55,724 nt of DNA. It comes from Candidatus Omnitrophota bacterium. Its GTDB lineage: Bacteria; Omnitrophota; Gorgyraeia; Zapsychrales; Zapsychraceae. Both the position numbers and the translations under genes were made by a program. Shown piece by piece: positions 19,037-27,234 of this stretch; position 1 is the first letter of the stretch; each line of letters starts with the position of its first letter. The notes beneath the pieces were generated by a model. The model did not search any database. It had not been told where the DNA came from and saw nothing but the letters and a program-made list of their open reading frames with translations. The stretch covers positions 1-55,724 of the forward strand of contig JACRHP010000059.1 in the NCBI GenBank assembly GCA_016212005.1. The letters are read 5' to 3'.

Positions 19037-19163
19037 AGCTTTTTCATTGTACCGATTTTCCCCTAAAATTCAACCGAAAATTCCGGTTTGTCCGTCTTTC
19101 TACGAAGATACGCTTAATCAGTTGAAAAACATACGGATACATCTGATCAATAAAAAACATTAC

Positions 19164-19195
19164 ATGTCACAGCAGCATGTCACAGTATGTCACAG
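19164..19195. repeat. three copies of ATGTCACAG
   Basis: copies at 19164, 19177 and 19187. Confidence 0.7.
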
Positions 19196-19230
19196 TAAAT
19201 TTGTCCCTTGGCAATGTCTCTTATTGTCCC

Positions 19231-19481
19231 TTATTGGGCCTGCTCAAGGCTTAAAGCCGTGCCTTCGATGCGCGTGGAATGGTGCGACTCAAGGATGAGC
19301 GCCTTTTTCTGCATATCGGCGATCCAGTCGTCCTTGAGCTTGACCGCGTCCAGGAACCCGCGCACCCGCTCGATCTCCACAAGCGCCTTGCGCCAGTCCT
19401 GAGCGAAGCCCCCCGATTTTGTCCGGGGCGAGTCGAAGGGTTGATCTTCGGGGTTATAGTGTATTTCGGACTAAATGCCAC
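19231..19481 (-). pseudogene. Fic family protein N-terminal remnant interrupted by a dispersed repeat
   Basis: VAFSPKYTITPKIN then, after repeat, DWRKALVEIERVRGFLDAVKLKDDWIADMQKKALILESHHSTRIEGTALSLEQAQ* in a different frame. Confidence 0.75.
19398..19440 (-). repeat. dispersed CCTTCGAC...GCTCAGG repeat inside the Fic remnant
   Basis: minus strand CCTTCGACTCGCCCCGGACAAAATCGGGGGGCTTCGCTCAGG. Confidence 0.65.
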
Positions 19482-19540
19482 CACACACCTCAATTACAAA
19501 GAATCCCGGTTGATGCCTTATTTATTGATGTCATATTCGT

Positions 19541-19774
19541 TCATTTGTCAGCCGTAGGTCTCCAAATAGATGACATGCTTTCGCTTGCCGTTCTCTGGAG
19601 TTCCTGCGGGTGTTTTTTCGGTCTCTTGCATTCTAACCCCTTCTCATAACATAGCTTCCACGGTTGGTTGATTTCCAGTTTTACAATTTCCTTGTAGTTC
19701 GGGGCGTCCATTGAGCCGCGGATGCTGCATGCCGCGTCCCACAGCCACGTTTCAAGGGTTTTTATGTCAAGCAT
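19541..19774 (-). pseudogene. truncated type I restriction methyltransferase (HsdM) N-terminus
   Basis: MLDIKTLETWLWDAACSIRGSMDAPNYK matches the HsdM N-terminal pattern, then diverges and stops at 77 aa. Confidence 0.65.
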
Positions 19775-19796
19775 AGAAATTGTTTTGTCCTGGAAT

Positions 19797-20615
19797 TTAA
19801 CTAGATTTCGGGGGGAATTTCTTCAGTAATCTTTCAAGATGCTCCGAGGCTTTATTTATCCTGTGTAGAATCCCATTGATTCGCCGTTTGTCAAATTCCT
19901 CTTCTTCCCCCATGCATATTAAAACATTTTTCTTGGCAGGATCTGCCTTGCAGTGGGCAAGGAGGTTCCTGTCACCTGCCAGCTTATCAACCTCGGATGA
20001 TAACCCCTCAAATTCCTTCTCAATTTTATTCTCCTTCAGTATCTTTGCCAGCGTGGATTTCTTCCCGGCCAGGGAATTATATTTATTCTCAAGGATAAAA
20101 TTATGGAACTGTTCCAATGTGTCCTTCGGGATTTCAAAATAACCTGCAAAAAATTCATTCACCTTTAATTCTAGATCAATAATCAAGGAAATTACCATGC
20201 CCCTCAAGAAAACGATGTCCTCGCATCTCTTCAAATTTTTGTCTATCAGTTTCTTCAATTTATCCTCAATATCCTTTCCTTCAACAATTTCAACAAACCC
20301 ATAATGTTCCTGCCGTACTTCATCAGGATCAAAACCCTTGGCAGAATAAAACAAGACATCGGTCAATTTCCCCTTTTGCTTTAAAATCTGTATTACAGTA
20401 ATACCATCCATCGGGTCAGGTAAATTTTTATCAGTTACAACGATATCAATAGGAATCCTGTCTGTGATAGCCTTCTTGAATTGATTCCCGTTTTCATCAA
20501 GAATGATATTGGGCTCAAAATTCTTGCCCTTGAGGTAATCGCGGATGGCATCAACCTGGCTTTTCATGGCCCTCGGTTTATCTTCAATCCAGATAATGGT
20601 GAAAGCTTGGTTCAT
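19797..20615 (-). CDS. response regulator receiver protein with HEPN-like C-terminal domain
   Basis: IIWIEDKP acidic pair, VVTDKNLPD (D62), FYSAKG; C-terminal SLAGKKSTLAKIL...VDKLAGDRNLLAH (R216-x4-H221). Confidence 0.75.
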   Translation of the reverse strand: MNQAFTIIWIEDKPRAMKSQVDAIRDYLKGKNFEPNIILDENGNQFKKAITDRIPIDIVVTDKNLPDPMDGITVIQILKQKGKLTDVLFYSAKGFDPDEVRQEHYGFVEIVEGKDIEDKLKKLIDKNLKRCEDIVFLRGMVISLIIDLELKVNEFFAGYFEIPKDTLEQFHNFILENKYNSLAGKKSTLAKILKENKIEKEFEGLSSEVDKLAGDRNLLAHCKADPAKKNVLICMGEEEEFDKRRINGILHRINKASEHLERLLKKFPPKSS

Positions 20616-22873
20616 GGCAAAATCACCTCAAAGCAAGCACCTTTTCCAAGGTCTTCAACATCATTTCCCACGAATTTCACTTCTCCTCCCATTTTTTCAA
20701 TGATGGTTTTAATATGATGCAATCCTATCCCTGAACCGTTAGTTGTGGTTTCCCCGCGCTTGAAAAGCTTGTTAAGCATCTTGTTGTCAACACCCTTTCC
20801 ATTATCCGATACATGGATGTGTAGTTTTTTGTTAAGCATCTTGAACTTGATTGCCATTGTTGTTGCCCCGGCTTTTTTTGCATTGCTTATGAGGTTATCA
20901 AGGACAATAGAAATCTCCAGCGGCCTGAATTCTACCACGTGTTCTATCCCCTCGTTGGAAAACCGAAATTTCATTATTTCTGCCTTTACTATTCTTTCAA
21001 GGTACTCCTTGACATAGAGGACGACGTCCTTTTTTATCAACTCAACTTTCGTTTTAAAATTAGCCATGCCGACAATATTCGCGAGGATCATTATTTTCTC
21101 GTTCTCTATACTGAGCTCGTCAACAAAAGGGGCTATCTCAGAGATTGGCCTGTCCGCGTGTATTTTCTTGTTGATATCAATAACTATTTCCTTGATGGTT
21201 TTTGTTGAGTTCTCGATTGTATGATTCAGGCTCGTTATAATTTCTTTATCGGTGGATACAACTTTCGTGAGGAAAAGTGATTCCCGTTCCTTTGCCTTTA
21301 ACTCCTCTTCCTTTTCCCCCTTTTCAATCTCAAGGTTCCTGGTCGCGAGCCTTACTGATTTCAACTGCTTTTCAATGTACGCCTTTTGCTCAGGTGCCTT
21401 CACGTATTTATTCAGGGATTCTATATTCTTGATGACCTGAGGTAAATTCTCTATTTGCTTATCCTTGAGGATCGTGAGTAAATCGGAATTGAACTGGATG
21501 TTTTTCTCGGGATCTTTCACCTGGCCGGCTAGTTTCTGGATTAACTCAAGGCTATCCCGCTTGATTTCCTCGGGGGATTTCTGTTTCTCCGCGTCTTCCT
21601 TATCCCAGTCAATGCCCTCAACGACGTACTTCTCAAGCCTCCTGAGTATCTTTTCAATAAAATAATCCTGCAGGTGCTGGAATTCTTGTGTTTTCAGCAC
21701 ACCGCCGTCCCTGCTGGATACTTCTTCAAAACCTGGCTGGGGCCCGTGGAGTTCAATCCTTCCCATTAACTCCCTGTTTGCAAGATACCTGGCATACCCC
21801 TGCCCTTTTCGTTTCTCAAGGCCAAGCCAATCATCTCCCTCGTCACCGTACGGGTGAATCCTGAACTTGTTTTTATACAGGAATATTGAGCCATAATTTT
21901 TAGGTTCAACCCCCATGACCCGTGTAAAAGTATTCTTTGCTGCCTGGCTGAGGTAAAATAAATTTACAGTTATATTATCAAGGCCAGGGTACTCGCTTCG
22001 CTCTTCTATGACGAATATGGACTTTCCCTTGTCAATTAATTCTGTTCTTACCTTCCCGCCAGTGATAGATGACTTTAATTCCGTAGTTTTAATCCCGAGT
22101 TTTTCAAAGACTATATTCTTAACCGGGCCATTAATGAGATTAAAATCCTCCTCCTTCTTGACTTTCTTATCGTTTTCAAGGAATTCTCTTGCCTCAAGGT
22201 AAATCTTGAATTCCTGCTCTTCAATTGACGAGGGATTAATCAATCGTTGCAGGTATTTTCTTAATTCCAGTAACTTCCCCGCATCCCACTTGTCGTTAAG
22301 CGAAGATATCTCCAGGATGGTTCCATTCTTGAATTCTTTCACGGGGTAATCTTCTATCTCTACCTTGGCCATGGTTGAGTAATTAATCTTTATAGTCTGG
22401 AATTCTTTTTCCTGGTCCTCCTCAAATTTTTGCCAGTTAACATCAAGGAAGTGTATTCCCTTTTCCCCCTCTTTCCTCGTGTAAAGTTTAAGCTTGGTAC
22501 CAAGCCTATCACAGGAAAACCTGCCAACGCCTTTTGCACCGGCAAATACCCTCTTGTTTTTTATCTTATCCCTGAAACTCTTTCTTGCTGGTTCCTTTTC
22601 ATCGTCCTTCTTTTCAGAGTATCCAACAAATAACCATTTTTTCACGAGATCGTCATGGGACATGCCATCCCCATCATCAATAATTAATATCCTGGAAGAA
22701 CCACCCTTGCCTGTATCCTTGATGTCCTGGAATACAATTCTTACCAGTTTCGCGTTGGCATCATAGGAATTCTTGACGAGTTCAAAAATGGCAATCCGGT
22801 CATTGGTAATCAACTCTTTCCCGATTATATTCTTCAATCCCGAGCTTATCCTGAAATCCAGTTGCTTGTTCAC
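20612..22873 (-). CDS. dual GHKL ATPase: N-terminal Hsp90/MORC-like plus C-terminal histidine-kinase-like ATPase
   Basis: N-term IAIFELVKNSYDANA, IIDDGDGMS, GAKGVGRFS; C-term LDNLISNAKKAGA, VSDNGKGVD, GSGIGLHHI. Confidence 0.85.
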   Translation of the reverse strand: MNKQLDFRISSGLKNIIGKELITNDRIAIFELVKNSYDANAKLVRIVFQDIKDTGKGGSSRILIIDDGDGMSHDDLVKKWLFVGYSEKKDDEKEPARKSFRDKIKNKRVFAGAKGVGRFSCDRLGTKLKLYTRKEGEKGIHFLDVNWQKFEEDQEKEFQTIKINYSTMAKVEIEDYPVKEFKNGTILEISSLNDKWDAGKLLELRKYLQRLINPSSIEEQEFKIYLEAREFLENDKKVKKEEDFNLINGPVKNIVFEKLGIKTTELKSSITGGKVRTELIDKGKSIFVIEERSEYPGLDNITVNLFYLSQAAKNTFTRVMGVEPKNYGSIFLYKNKFRIHPYGDEGDDWLGLEKRKGQGYARYLANRELMGRIELHGPQPGFEEVSSRDGGVLKTQEFQHLQDYFIEKILRRLEKYVVEGIDWDKEDAEKQKSPEEIKRDSLELIQKLAGQVKDPEKNIQFNSDLLTILKDKQIENLPQVIKNIESLNKYVKAPEQKAYIEKQLKSVRLATRNLEIEKGEKEEELKAKERESLFLTKVVSTDKEIITSLNHTIENSTKTIKEIVIDINKKIHADRPISEIAPFVDELSIENEKIMILANIVGMANFKTKVELIKKDVVLYVKEYLERIVKAEIMKFRFSNEGIEHVVEFRPLEISIVLDNLISNAKKAGATTMAIKFKMLNKKLHIHVSDNGKGVDNKMLNKLFKRGETTTNGSGIGLHHIKTIIEKMGGEVKFVGNDVEDLGKGACFEVILP

Positions 22874-24090
22874 TTTACCATCTCCTTCAAAATCTCCCCC
22901 GCGTGTTCCATGAACAAGGGGGGTATTGCATTCCCCACCTGGGAATACCGTGGGACAGCAGTCCTTCTCAATTTCCCCCCGGTCGTGTATGCTTCCCTTA
23001 TCTTGTACCAGTCATCAAACGACTGTACCCGCGCATACTCCCTGACACTTAATACCCGAGGTTCTGCGTAATGTATATAATCGTCGGGTAGTGTTGTCAA
23101 GGTCGGGCTTTGCCTGTCCGGGGCCAGTGGGACAACATGATGTTTATTGATACTGAAAACCTGGCGGGCAGAGGTGTCAATATTCTTCCCCCTTGAGCAC
23201 TTGCTCAGGATATAACTGAACTTTTTAACAGTTTCCTCGTTATGATTTGGGAAGCGGTGGCTATCCGGCACCCCGGTATTTTCCCCCCGTAAAAGTTTCT
23301 GGTAATTGTTTTCCCATTCCCCATAGAGCCCTTCCTTGAAACCGGGAAATTCACTGGAAACTATTTCCCCGTGCCTTCGTTCCAGGTCAGAGATAGCATC
23401 CTTGAGGGTCATCTTTTCCCCTATTCCTTTCTTCTTCAAGAATTCAATCTTCTTGCTTACCAGCTCCTTGAAAAATATCATGGGATCCCCACCAAGAACA
23501 CCAACAAGGATAAACCTCTTCCTCTCCTGAGGGACCCCGAAATCACCGAAATTGATAATGTCCGCGTGCACGTTATAGCCAAGTTTTTCCAGTCTCCTGA
23601 GGACATAGTCCGAGTAAACCCTGCCGCTGGAATTGTTTTTCTTGAACTTGATTGTGAATCCTTTCACATTCTCAAAGAAAATAATCCTTGGTTTTACAAG
23701 CCGGACAAACCTTATGTAGCTATTAACAAGTTTATTCCTCTTGTCCGCCTCATTCCTCCTCCCAGCAAATGAGAAACCCTGGCACGGTGGCCCACCAACG
23801 AGCAAAGTCACTTTTCCCTTTAAACCAATCAATTCTTTTTTGTAATTCCGGAGGAAGGTGTTAATATTGTGCGGTTTCTGGGGCAACCATCCGGGCCATT
23901 CAAAATGCTGTTTTCCATCTATCAAATTATATTGAAGCGTTGAGAAGGCCATCTTGCTTTTCTCAATGGCAAATAACCCCTTCCAACCAGCTTTCAAGAG
24001 TCCAAGGGATGCTCCCCCGCACCCGGCGAACAGGTCTATGTACATGTAGCCATTTAACCGTGGCATATTAAGAGGATTGTCTGTTTTCAT
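22870..24090 (-). CDS. C5 cytosine DNA methyltransferase
   Basis: DLFAGCGGASLGL, GGPPCQGFSFAGRR, FFENVKGF, VPQERKRFILVG, QVGNAIPPLF. Confidence 0.95.
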   Translation of the reverse strand: MKTDNPLNMPRLNGYMYIDLFAGCGGASLGLLKAGWKGLFAIEKSKMAFSTLQYNLIDGKQHFEWPGWLPQKPHNINTFLRNYKKELIGLKGKVTLLVGGPPCQGFSFAGRRNEADKRNKLVNSYIRFVRLVKPRIIFFENVKGFTIKFKKNNSSGRVYSDYVLRRLEKLGYNVHADIINFGDFGVPQERKRFILVGVLGGDPMIFFKELVSKKIEFLKKKGIGEKMTLKDAISDLERRHGEIVSSEFPGFKEGLYGEWENNYQKLLRGENTGVPDSHRFPNHNEETVKKFSYILSKCSRGKNIDTSARQVFSINKHHVVPLAPDRQSPTLTTLPDDYIHYAEPRVLSVREYARVQSFDDWYKIREAYTTGGKLRRTAVPRYSQVGNAIPPLFMEHAGEILKEMVK

Positions 24091-24759
24091 TTATAAAGCT
24101 TCTTTCCCGTGATGGTAACGTGAGCAGTAACCACATCCCTTGCGCAAGGGGCATTTCCCGCAGAGCGGGCGCGTTTTGCACACGAGTGCCCCGAGATCAA
24201 GTAACCCCCAGTTATATTCCTTGAAGGATTTTCTAGGCAGTAGTTCCCCTGCCTTTAGTTGTAACGCCTTGTTGTCCCGTAAATCCTTCCGGGCGTCAAT
24301 GTCAAAAAACCTGGATATAATCCTGCTGCTATTAACATCCAGGATGGGAACCCTTTTATTAAACCCAAAACAGAACGTGGCATTGGCAATATACAACCCC
24401 ACGTGGGGAATACCCTCAATCTCTGGCAATCTATTAGGAATTCTGCCCTCAAAATTTTCGTGCACAAACCCAGCAATTTTCTTGAGGGCAGTTGTCCTTT
24501 GATTTCCTAACCCGAGGGGAGATATTTTCCTTAAAATTCTCCCTCTTTGTTCCTTGCAAAGTTTTCCTGCAGTATTGTATCTTTTCACGAAGGGCTCTAT
24601 TCTCTGGTCAACAGTTTCAGCCCGTGTTTTCTTCAAGAATAATTCTGTTATCAAAACCTGGAAAGGTGATAATTTTTCCCTTCGCCAGAAAAAATCCCGT
24701 TGATTATTGTCATAGAACTTCTTGATCCTATCCCTGAAATATTGATTTTTATTCATCAA
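24091..24759 (-). CDS. HhH-GPD DNA glycosylase with Fe-S cluster, Tyr at the EndoIII Lys position (TDG/Mig-like)
   Basis: IEGIPHVGLYIANATFCFGFNKRVPILDVNSSR; CKTRPLCGKCPLRKGC cluster. Confidence 0.85.
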   Translation of the reverse strand: MMNKNQYFRDRIKKFYDNNQRDFFWRREKLSPFQVLITELFLKKTRAETVDQRIEPFVKRYNTAGKLCKEQRGRILRKISPLGLGNQRTTALKKIAGFVHENFEGRIPNRLPEIEGIPHVGLYIANATFCFGFNKRVPILDVNSSRIISRFFDIDARKDLRDNKALQLKAGELLPRKSFKEYNWGLLDLGALVCKTRPLCGKCPLRKGCGYCSRYHHGKEAL

Positions 24760-24765
24760 TCTTGA

Positions 24766-24951
24766 TTAAACATTGCTCCTGCTCTTAATAAACCTGTCAA
24801 GATCCTCCCGTCTGATCCGCCACTGTTTAATTTTCGTCGCCCGTATTTGTTTCTCGCGGATGAGTTGCCGGATACGATACTCGGTCAAGCCGAGCTCTTT
24901 CGCAACCTGCCGGACGGTAAGAAAATTCTTGAGATTCATAGAAATGCCCAC
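24766..24951 (-). CDS. excisionase/MerR-type HTH DNA-binding protein
   Basis: FLTVRQVAKELGLTEYRIRQLIREKQIRATKIKQWRIRREDLDRFI. Confidence 0.85.
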   Translation of the reverse strand: MGISMNLKNFLTVRQVAKELGLTEYRIRQLIREKQIRATKIKQWRIRREDLDRFIKSRSNV

Positions 24952-24967
24952 TTAACGTTATTTCACA

Positions 24968-25549
24968 TTATGACACATCATGCGAAAATAAAGAATACGA
25001 GATTGGGCTTTCTCTCCTGAGCATCCAGGACAGTTGACTCCTGTTCCACGGCCACTTCTGGTTGCCAAGCAATTTCTTCTCAACCCGTTTATAATCCCTC
25101 GTCTTGTAAAACCATAGCTTTATTTCGCCGCTGGTAAGAGCTTCCTCAAGAATCAGTTTGTTAATACGACAGTTTGTTTCCTGCCCACCGGTAAAGCAAT
25201 TTCTCGGGGAGATTTGACCATATCCCATGTTGAACCGCAGTGAAAGGTCAACACATTCGCCCATGTATTTATATGCATTGTTTACCGTGATGATGTAAAC
25301 CCCCGGTTGATTGATCCCAACAGGAATGCGGAACCGGCAGAATTTCCCGCTTCCATATTTGTTTAATGAAACTCCTCTTTTATTTTCATATTTGTCCTGC
25401 GGCTCAAACCTGAGAATATTGCCTTCTGTATCTTTTTCTGGTTTCATTGCACATATCAGGACAAACCTGTGGCCATTTATATCCATGTTCTGATAGTAAG
25501 ATGTACTCTGTGTTTTTTTCATAACTCCATGATTATTCAAGCCTTGCAA
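24968..25549 (-). CDS. GIY-YIG nuclease domain protein, possible restriction endonuclease
   Basis: PGVYIITVNNAYKYMGECVDLSLRF...VEKKLLGNQKWPWN, GIY-YIG catalytic pattern. Confidence 0.7.
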   Translation of the reverse strand: MQGLNNHGVMKKTQSTSYYQNMDINGHRFVLICAMKPEKDTEGNILRFEPQDKYENKRGVSLNKYGSGKFCRFRIPVGINQPGVYIITVNNAYKYMGECVDLSLRFNMGYGQISPRNCFTGGQETNCRINKLILEEALTSGEIKLWFYKTRDYKRVEKKLLGNQKWPWNRSQLSWMLRRESPISYSLFSHDVS

Positions 25550-25673
25550 CAGCCTTGGCTATTTTCTTCATTATCATCATGTAACGCATCCATCTCCCAG
25601 CCAAAGGTTTGTATCCACACACGCTTTCCAAGCATCATATCCCTTTCACTTATAGAGAGTTAAAAACTTCGAA

Positions 25674-26028
25674 TTAATTTTGAGCAAGTTTTGGCTTCAA
25701 TTCTCCATTGCACACTTGTTTAAGCGATAATTCCCGATCCTCAAATTCTTGCTGACTTAAAAAGCCTTCTCGGTAAAGCGTTCTAAGGAAATCCTCTACT
25801 GATGAATCATTCTTTCGATTATTACGCTGAATTTCCAGACATTGGCTTTCCCTTCTCGCCAACTCCGCACGCCATTCTTGTACGCGCAGATTTAAACCCA
25901 ATGACGATCTCAGCTTTACCAAGCAATCGGGAATGCCTGAAAATATATAGATAGATGGCCTGCTCATAGGTATCGAGTCCGGGAGCAAGATAATCGTGAA
26001 ACTGTATGATGAAATTTTCTAAATTCAT
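25674..26028 (-). pseudogene. HTH-HNH endonuclease family remnant with internal deletion and frameshift
   Basis: MNLENFIIQFHDYLAPGLDTYEQAIYLYIFRHSRLLGKAEIVIGFKSARTRMACGVGEKGKPMS in one frame, NNRKNDSSVEDFLRTLYREGFLSQQEFEDR in another; HNH core absent. Confidence 0.65.
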
Positions 26029-26046
26029 TAGATATTACCCTTATTA

Positions 26047-27108
26047 TTACCCTCTTTTAAGGGTATTACCCTTTTTCTTCCAAAGGGCGCCGGGGCCGCG
26101 GCCAATGCATTCGACCTTTTTCAATTTCTGAAGATCGCGAAGAACGACTCGTATCATATCTCGGCTCACGCCCGGACAAGCTTTCTCAAGATCGGACAGG
26201 GTGAATTCTTTATTGAATCCTTCGATAGCAGACTCTATGAGTTTGGTTTTTGATCCACGCGGGCTTTTCATCTGTCCTACCCGGCCTTCGAATTCTTGAT
26301 AAGCCATCTTAAGAATATACAAAACATAATTGATATACGGCCAAGGATCGTGTTTGCCTTCGTGCCAGCGTTGCGAACTCTGTTCCAAGGTTTCGTAATA
26401 GCGTTCTTTGTTCTGTTCGATTAACCGCTCCAGACTGATGTATCGGCCGACTTCGTAGCCAAGCGAATAGCATTGAAGCAGAAGAAGCAGACGAGAAACG
26501 CGGCCGTTGCCGTCGCGGAAAGGATGAACGCAAAGGAAATCCAGATTGAATGCCGCAAGTGCTATGAGTGGATGGACGTTCTTTTCTTTCAAAGTGTCTT
26601 GCCAAGATTCCACAAGTTTCCCCATAAAAGCCGGCGTTTTCGAGGCTTCAACGGTTTTAAATCGTACACGCTCTCTGCCCCCGGGCAGTTTCTCAATAAT
26701 ATCCACGTTCTTCTCTTTGTATTTGCCCGCATCCCAAATCTCGCCCCGGCTCGTTTCGTGGAGTTTGAGAATTGTTTTTTCAGAAACTGGAATTTTTGCG
26801 CCATCTCTATGAATCCAATCAAGGGCCGTGCGATAACAGCGGACTTCTTCTTCGTTGCGATCTTTGAGATGCCTTTTCCCAAAAACAATCGTTCCCACTC
26901 TTCTCTGATTAACCGTCACGCCCTCGATCCGGTTTGAGGAAACAGCGCTTTCGATCAATGCGTGCTCACGCAACACTTTCAACTTTTGCGGGGATTGTTT
27001 GGTAAAAAGCTCCTGTTTTCCCCGCGCTTCTCCCAAATCCGCCAAATACCAGGAGGTGGTTGTTGGAATATTTTTAATTGCCTTCTTGAACTGCTGAAAT
27101 GTTTTCAA
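26047..27108 (-). CDS. Fic family protein
   Basis: HPFRDGNGRVSRLLLLLQ Fic motif; SSNRIEG inhibitory-like motif; C-terminal winged-helix-like region. Confidence 0.93.
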   Translation of the reverse strand: MKTFQQFKKAIKNIPTTTSWYLADLGEARGKQELFTKQSPQKLKVLREHALIESAVSSNRIEGVTVNQRRVGTIVFGKRHLKDRNEEEVRCYRTALDWIHRDGAKIPVSEKTILKLHETSRGEIWDAGKYKEKNVDIIEKLPGGRERVRFKTVEASKTPAFMGKLVESWQDTLKEKNVHPLIALAAFNLDFLCVHPFRDGNGRVSRLLLLLQCYSLGYEVGRYISLERLIEQNKERYYETLEQSSQRWHEGKHDPWPYINYVLYILKMAYQEFEGRVGQMKSPRGSKTKLIESAIEGFNKEFTLSDLEKACPGVSRDMIRVVLRDLQKLKKVECIGRGPGALWKKKGNTLKRG

Positions 27109-27171
27109 CTCTTGTCCTCACAATTGGATAGCATCTTTAGAATCCCCAAAATCGTCGTACGGTACTTGCAC

Positions 27172-27200
27172 CCCTTCGACTCACTTTGTTCGCTCAGGGC
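27172..27200. repeat. dispersed CTTCGACTC...GCTCAGGG repeat
   Basis: ccccttcgactcactttgttcgctcaggg. Confidence 0.6.
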
Positions 27201-27234
27201 AGGCAACGGTCAGCCGTACGTTTCAATGGAAAAC

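Follow-up and report, generated by a model that had tools for sequence, protein, structure and literature searches.

A conserved Dcm, paraMORC-kinase and receiver-HEPN cassette with an exchangeable output module, predicted to act in methylation-guarded abortive infection

A 55,724-nucleotide stretch of DNA from a Candidatus Omnitrophota bacterium (assembly GCA_016212005.1, contig JACRHP010000059.1; hereafter the window) carries on its minus strand, between positions 19797 and 25549, six co-directional genes, of which just three form a conserved unit: those for a Dcm-type C5 cytosine methyltransferase, a GHKL protein joining a paraMORC-type ATPase to a histidine kinase, and a receiver protein with a predicted C-terminal HEPN domain. 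The order Dcm-GHKL-receiver occurs far beyond chance, in dozens of genomes from both bacteria and archaea. The best reading of this cassette, and one we hold to be reasonably probable from the sequence comparisons below, is abortive infection guarded by DNA methylation, in which a His-Asp phosphorelay would release a HEPN suicide RNase. We put at about even the chances of the more general proposal, that such cassettes provide an endonuclease-free immunity resembling restriction-modification (R-M), in which a methylase and a MORC-like sensor act through a phosphorelay on a plug-in HEPN or caspase-like output that kills or arrests the cell, the kinase half, receiver and effector being swapped together among bacterial, archaeal and phage-borne loci.

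Results and discussion

The six-gene array and its conserved core

In the direction of transcription the six genes are as follows (lengths in amino acids, aa).

24968-25549, minus strand: GIY-YIG nuclease, 193 aa, assigned by similarity to annotated relatives; accessory or passenger
24766-24951, minus strand: HTH_17/excisionase-like small DNA-binding protein, 61 aa (Pfam HTH_17, 1.3e-13); accessory
24091-24759, minus strand: HhH glycosylase of MutY/Nth type, Mig.MthI-like, 222 aa (Pfam HhH-GPD); optional accessory
22870-24090, minus strand: Dcm-type C5 cytosine methyltransferase, 406 aa (Pfam DNA_methylase, 2.2e-51); core
20612-22873, minus strand: paraMORC-type GHKL ATPase and histidine kinase, 753 aa (Pfam HATPase_c_3 and HATPase_c); core
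19797-20615, minus strand: receiver-HEPN protein, 272 aa (Pfam Response_reg, 9e-8); core

The Dcm and GHKL reading frames overlap by 4 bp (22870-22873), as do those of the GHKL and receiver proteins (20612-20615), and the glycosylase frame ends at 24091, adjoining the Dcm start at 24090. This arrangement, described in an earlier reading of the letters alone (the sequence-only reading), was reproduced from the list of open reading frames (ORFs). The identities then given to the HTH, HhH, Dcm, GHKL and receiver proteins each pass their Pfam cut-offs (HTH_17, HhH-GPD, DNA_methylase, HATPase_c_3 with HATPase_c, Response_reg), and that of the GIY-YIG protein, which has no Pfam match, is borne out by tblastn relatives annotated as GIY-YIG nuclease family at 37-43% identity over the GIY-YIG region.

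Relatives were gathered from bacterial and archaeal genomes and plasmids with the GHKL protein as sole query, and the best 80 of more than 500, the window included, were scored as loci; because of this selection and the GHKL-only collection, the proportions given here describe the nearest relatives and not the whole paraMORC-kinase family. Dcm lies directly upstream of the GHKL gene and on the same strand in 63 of the 80, and the next downstream gene encodes a receiver-HEPN protein in 38. A second group of 23 loci has instead a receiver of about 200-245 aa followed by a separate caspase-like protein of about 200-280 aa, and the downstream gene of the remainder encodes a short receiver (3 loci) or another protein (12), or is cut or unclear (4). 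The sequence-only reading had made its operon depend on GHKL homologues adjoining Dcm and receiver genes, and with Dcm adjacent and a receiver mostly downstream the core of that operon survives. Overlaps of 4 bp between kinase and receiver genes are frequent across the cassette loci, and the pairwise divergences of the three proteins are correlated (GHKL-receiver r 0.67, Dcm-receiver 0.43, Dcm-GHKL 0.34; 0 of 2000 permutations in each case). Bacterial hosts include Bacteroidota, Campylobacterota, Spirochaetota, Bacillota, Pseudomonadota and Acidobacteriota, and archaeal hosts include Methanoregula, Bathyarchaeota, Pacearchaeota and Nitrososphaerota.

The methylase has all its motifs intact (FAGCGG, PPCQ, ENV, QERKR, GNAI), which together with the Pfam match supports the earlier claim of a 5-methylcytosine (5mC) modification enzyme as a prediction. 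It is the sole C5 methylase found in its own genome, which is 86% complete, and it falls with the other cassette methylases, 48 in all, into one clade with support of 100/99.

A paraMORC ATPase joined to a complete histidine kinase

What had been called a dual-GHKL ATPase does contain two GHKL domains, and is more exactly a paraMORC ATPase followed by a complete histidine kinase. HATPase_c_3 covers residues 27-164 (Pfam 2.9e-24) and the HATPase_c kinase domain residues 654-753 (1.2e-19). Across 86 sequences the N-terminal ATPase motifs E31, N35, D66xGxGM and KGxGR are invariant, and the second half has the defining elements of a histidine kinase, the phospho-acceptor and the N and G boxes of the catalytic domain. 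The acceptor, H551, is invariant in 86 of 86 on an otherwise variable DHp helix, and the boxes (N660/N664, G713/G715/G717) are at least 99% conserved. Residues 551-634, the DHp region, also give a weak match to DUF4928 (PF16280, 3e-4) and to a PADLOC type II restriction enzyme model, a resemblance that may reflect coiled-coil chance or a shared module. Identification of the whole protein as a restriction enzyme of the BbrUII/HgiDII type (NF050001) was rejected, as the match is partial (residues 17-244) and scores 93 bits against a cut-off of 550.

The receiver-HEPN effector

The receiver occupies about residues 1-112 and the predicted HEPN domain about 115-266. Among 36 relatives, most of them merely 18-28% identical to the window protein, the receiver conserves E/D11 (36/36), D12 (31/36, N in 5), the phospho-acceptor D62 (36/36) and S/T91 (36/36), and the R-x4-H motif of the C-terminal domain, R216-N-L-L-A-H221, has both R216 and H221 invariant in all 36. 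An alignment-based AlphaFold2 model (mean predicted local distance difference test score, pLDDT, 86), used in place of a poor single-sequence model (pLDDT 49), places the receiver before a mainly helical domain with R-x4-H at a helix end. Taken by itself, the window protein matches Response_reg (PF00072) and no HEPN model in Pfam; individual relatives match HEPN_Swt1 (5), HEPN_RiboL-PSP (2, best 1.7e-5) and HEPN_MAE_28990 (2). A HEPN profile search over four HEPN-bearing loci gave weak scores, the best of which rests on an RN-x-x-AH motif. From motif, family and model the C-terminal domain is predicted to be a HEPN domain and, as such, a phospho-regulated RNase effector. The earlier proposal of GHKL-to-receiver signalling ending in a HEPN effector is supported, the HEPN call holding across the family though no Pfam model matches the window's member.

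Effector exchange

In the alternative effector, H, G and C are invariant in 22 of 22 sequences, the best PDB matches of the caspase-type profile are caspase-3, gingipain and caspase-8 (best E 0.003), and Pfam Peptidase_C25 is matched in four members. By motif and weak profile match this effector is caspase-like.

We compared the history of the two outputs on a tree of 42 cassette methylases of HEPN or caspase type and on quick trees of the ATPase and kinase halves of the GHKL protein. The effector label requires 10 changes on the Dcm tree, the maximum possible with 10 caspase tips, 8 on the ATPase-half tree and just 2 on the kinase-half tree. Close pairs of loci with unlike effectors locate the break. 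Two Tenacibaculum loci (L062, and L050 with the protease output) share 97.3% identity in Dcm and 97.8% in the ATPase half, and this falls to 46% in the kinase half, with receivers and effectors that differ; in a second pair (L049, from Flavobacterium swingsii, and L052) both flanks are shared and the stretch from kinase half through receiver to effector is unalignable at the DNA level. The junction in both pairs lies about 26-39 residues before the DHp histidine. Pairs with the same effector are mostly without such a break, L025/L026 being a partial exception. Because of the tree changes and these pairwise breaks we take Dcm and ATPase as one unit and kinase, receiver and effector as another; on this comparative evidence the latter three travel together as a plug-in output module. 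Exchange as a unit would be expected of a kinase half that signals specifically to its own receiver, with the effector as an interchangeable output. The evolutionary argument for such plug-in effector logic is strong.

Proposed mechanism

Methylation-guarded abortive infection would proceed in four steps. Dcm, with its catalytic motifs intact, would place 5mC on the host's own sites. The paraMORC ATPase would sense DNA without this mark, or in an invader-specific state, and undergo an ATP-dependent conformational change, a step we infer from its membership of the paraMORC/restriction family and its co-inheritance with Dcm. The attached histidine kinase would be switched, and phosphate would pass between two invariant residues, from H551 to D62. 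The receiver would then free the fused HEPN domain, and its putative R216/H221 site, which motif and helical model suggest, would cut RNA so that the cell stops. Elsewhere the kinase half would have been swapped, together with its receiver and effector, for a module that terminates in a caspase-like protease, and the adjoining HhH glycosylase would repair T:G mismatches arising from deaminated 5mC. Co-inheritance, invariant catalytic residues and output exchange can be read in the sequences. The proposal further supposes unmethylated or invader DNA as the trigger, an effector that phosphorylation activates and does not restrain, cleavage of RNA, and phages as the target.

Several observations weigh against this mechanism. 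The usual beta5 Lys of receivers is absent, with E or D at residue 109 in 33 of the 36, and because of this acidic replacement the receiver may be atypical or a pseudo-receiver. No Pfam DHp model recognises the region around H551. The HEPN model matches are weak and confined to few members, and a Foldseek search of the PDB with the whole model returned the receiver half only among the matches listed; the receiver dominates such a search, which neither confirms nor denies the HEPN domain. HEPN output is missing from about half of the loci, 12 of the 80 having neither a HEPN nor a caspase-like output that we could recognise. The unmethylated-DNA trigger is proposed from the link with Dcm, and the open-licence literature yielded no functional experiment on this paraMORC-kinase branch.

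The unusual receiver would also suit a different role for the pair, in which the HEPN domain binds RNA or protein without catalysis and the pair controls gene expression, with no cell death; some HEPN domains are indeed non-catalytic (PMC3710099). Against such a role stand an R-x4-H motif that is invariant in 36 of 36 proteins, most of them at such low identity, and sister loci in which a caspase-like protein bearing invariant His and Cys takes the place of the HEPN domain; we regard it as very unlikely.

Relation to known systems

The nearest published relatives are the proteins of Bellieny-Rabelo et al. 2021 (PMC8011034), which combine HATPase_c_3, HEF_HK and HATPase_c, have receiver-like partners and are encoded next to C5 methylases and Vsr; those authors suggested that the pairs regulate R-M systems. 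The window cassette resembles them in having HATPase_c_3, a phospho-acceptor helix and HATPase_c followed by a receiver-like protein, with a C5 methylase upstream, the published system often having Vsr nearby; the window thus shows the same arrangement of a HATPase_c_3 and HATPase_c protein adjoining a receiver and a C5 methylase. Membership in the published families was nonetheless rejected, as the window proteins match neither PF19191 (HEF_HK) nor PF19192 (Response_reg_2) at E up to 10. A search of the window's genome with PF19191 was also without match, control genomes likewise giving none. Since these models are unmatched, the window cassette is either a separate branch or beyond their reach. 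The receivers differ too, the published query being 600 aa long and the window's protein 272 aa with a Pfam-detectable receiver. The available part of PMC8011034 reports for its pairs neither a HEPN nor a caspase output, no exchange of modules and no members from archaea, and the word HEPN has 0 occurrences in its text. The earlier description of the operon as undescribed accordingly fails for paraMORC-kinase/response-regulator pairs beside C5 methylases, which that paper already contains, and stands for the effectors and their exchange: we found no description in the open-licence literature of receiver-HEPN or receiver/caspase-like output for these pairs, or of exchange. The predicted-systems figure of a 2026 screen (PMC13092281) has HATPase and receiver domains in an arrangement that the paper's text does not give.

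By analogy, two systems may serve as precedents for methylation-guarded abortive infection. In VapKSC (PMC13373217) a DNA-activated GHKL kinase releases an RNase toxin, as proposed here, whereas VapKSC/CapK-CapS works through serine phosphorylation of a STAS protein, a single-stranded DNA signal and a VapC toxin, with no methylase. ParaMORC ATPases were placed in R-M loci by Iyer et al. 2008 (PMC2292703), and Anantharaman et al. 2013 (PMC3710099) described paraMORC-Ymh-HEPN fusions in such loci as PrrC analogues proposed for backup suicide; these likewise pair a paraMORC ATPase with a HEPN RNase among R-M genes, but by direct fusion, without histidine kinase or receiver. PrrC-EcoprrI itself (per PMC3710099) is alike in tying a HEPN RNase to an R-M system as a second line, and differs in its ABC-ATPase fusion, type I R-M partner and lack of a phosphorelay. 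The window proteins matched no Detocs model in PADLOC, though the presence of such models in the version used was not confirmed. Detocs is a defence system with His-Asp signalling and an effector fused to the receiver, features that the window cassette shares; its sensor, partner proteins and effector differ, and it has no methylase.

If the proposed mechanism is correct, self-marking by DNA methylation, a MORC-family ATPase, from a family related to eukaryotic chromatin silencers, and two-component signalling would be joined to programmed cell shutdown, and a function would be given to paraMORC-kinase/receiver pairs known since 2021 merely as R-M-associated. Near-identical sensor halves with RNase or protease output are natural control constructs, with which sensing and kinase gating are directly testable.

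Accessory genes and endonucleases

The idea that all six genes form one system is not supported, as the GIY-YIG and HTH genes have no counterpart in homologous loci and the glycosylase is recurrent but optional. The best solved relative of the glycosylase is the T/G mismatch enzyme Mig.MthI (1KEA, E 4e-35), with the tyrosine and catalytic aspartate aligned; it also matches the PADLOC REase_II 'nicking endonuclease' model (2e-36). The gene for Mig.MthI adjoins a C5 methylase. The window enzyme agrees with it in the Tyr at the EndoIII Lys position, the catalytic Asp and an ORF abutting a C5 methylase, and differs in that its first two cluster cysteines are spaced one residue closer and in its link to a kinase-HEPN cassette. 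A gene of the same kind directly precedes Dcm in another locus (L039). We regard the glycosylase as a predicted T/G repair enzyme and a recurrent add-on, and the earlier claim of a dedicated mismatch-repair glycosylase is supported. The HTH protein, without relatives in other cassette loci, is possibly an operon regulator; its resemblance to a MADS component lies far below cut-off, and that assignment was rejected. Translation of the GIY-YIG gene probably starts near 25486 and not at 25549, because its relatives begin near MDINGH.

These co-directional neighbours, a C5 methylase, repair glycosylase, HTH protein and GIY-YIG nuclease, would also fit an ordinary type II R-M operon, with the GIY-YIG protein as endonuclease, Dcm as methylase, HhH repair of the V type, and kinase and receiver tuning R-M activity. 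GIY-YIG restriction enzymes exist, and tuning by the pair would resemble what was proposed in 2021 for related pairs (PMC8011034). Yet the GIY-YIG gene is not conserved with the cassette, its plasmid relatives standing beside unrelated genes and not Dcm, so that its candidacy as cognate restriction enzyme was set aside; no match to it was found in phages or viral contigs. The predicted output domain is HEPN and not DNA-binding, and clustering of the neighbours of homologous loci tied no endonuclease family to the HEPN-type loci. The families it did recover were Vsr-like genes, judged by sequence (13 loci), HhH glycosylases (4) and HpaII-type genes (4). Two loci, L024 and L028 (6922-8001), pair Dcm, an HpaII-type restriction endonuclease and a paraMORC-kinase with an effectorless receiver of 124-127 aa (PF09561, 8.5e-141 in L024; L028 assigned by similarity). 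They lend the R-M operon some support, and look as though a locus carried either an endonuclease or a fused effector. Taken together, an ordinary R-M operon in the window seems to us unlikely. In two further loci (L006 and L007) more distant paraMORC-kinase/receiver pairs are followed by HNH nucleases, which we count as a third output type, and the methylases are of Eco57I or N-6 type.

Genomic setting

The array lies in an insertion (19037-27234) that separates gltB from nadE, genes that are adjacent without insertion in seven family members. At this site a genome of the same genus carries a Fic protein together with what by eye look like AbiEi/AbiEii genes, which suggests a defence hotspot. 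As just two weak relatives were found among 384 genomes of the window's phylum, the cassette looks horizontally acquired. Contigs of the viral collection carry cassettes of both HEPN and caspase types.

A variable insertion site and carriage on viral-collection contigs would also suit a selfish addiction module with the same wiring. Such a module would be triggered mainly by Dcm loss, killing cells that had lost the element once their DNA became unmethylated, and phage defence would be secondary. Addiction by R-M systems likewise relies on a methylase coupled to a lethal effector, and sequence does not separate addiction from defence. That effectors were exchanged repeatedly, with 8-10 changes on the trees of the sensor parts, fits an arms race, and we think addiction rather improbable as the main role.

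One HEPN-type cassette, on a viral-collection contig (L118), has its kinase gene as two ORFs (335 and 429 aa) about 1.7 kb apart and looks interrupted. Within the window's own insertion, a 77-aa ORF at 19541-19774 matches the N-terminus of type I HsdM over its first 31 residues (PADLOC, 1.6e-9) and is apparently what is left of an earlier type I R-M system, and a SoFic-like protein of the Fic/DOC family is encoded at 26047-27108.

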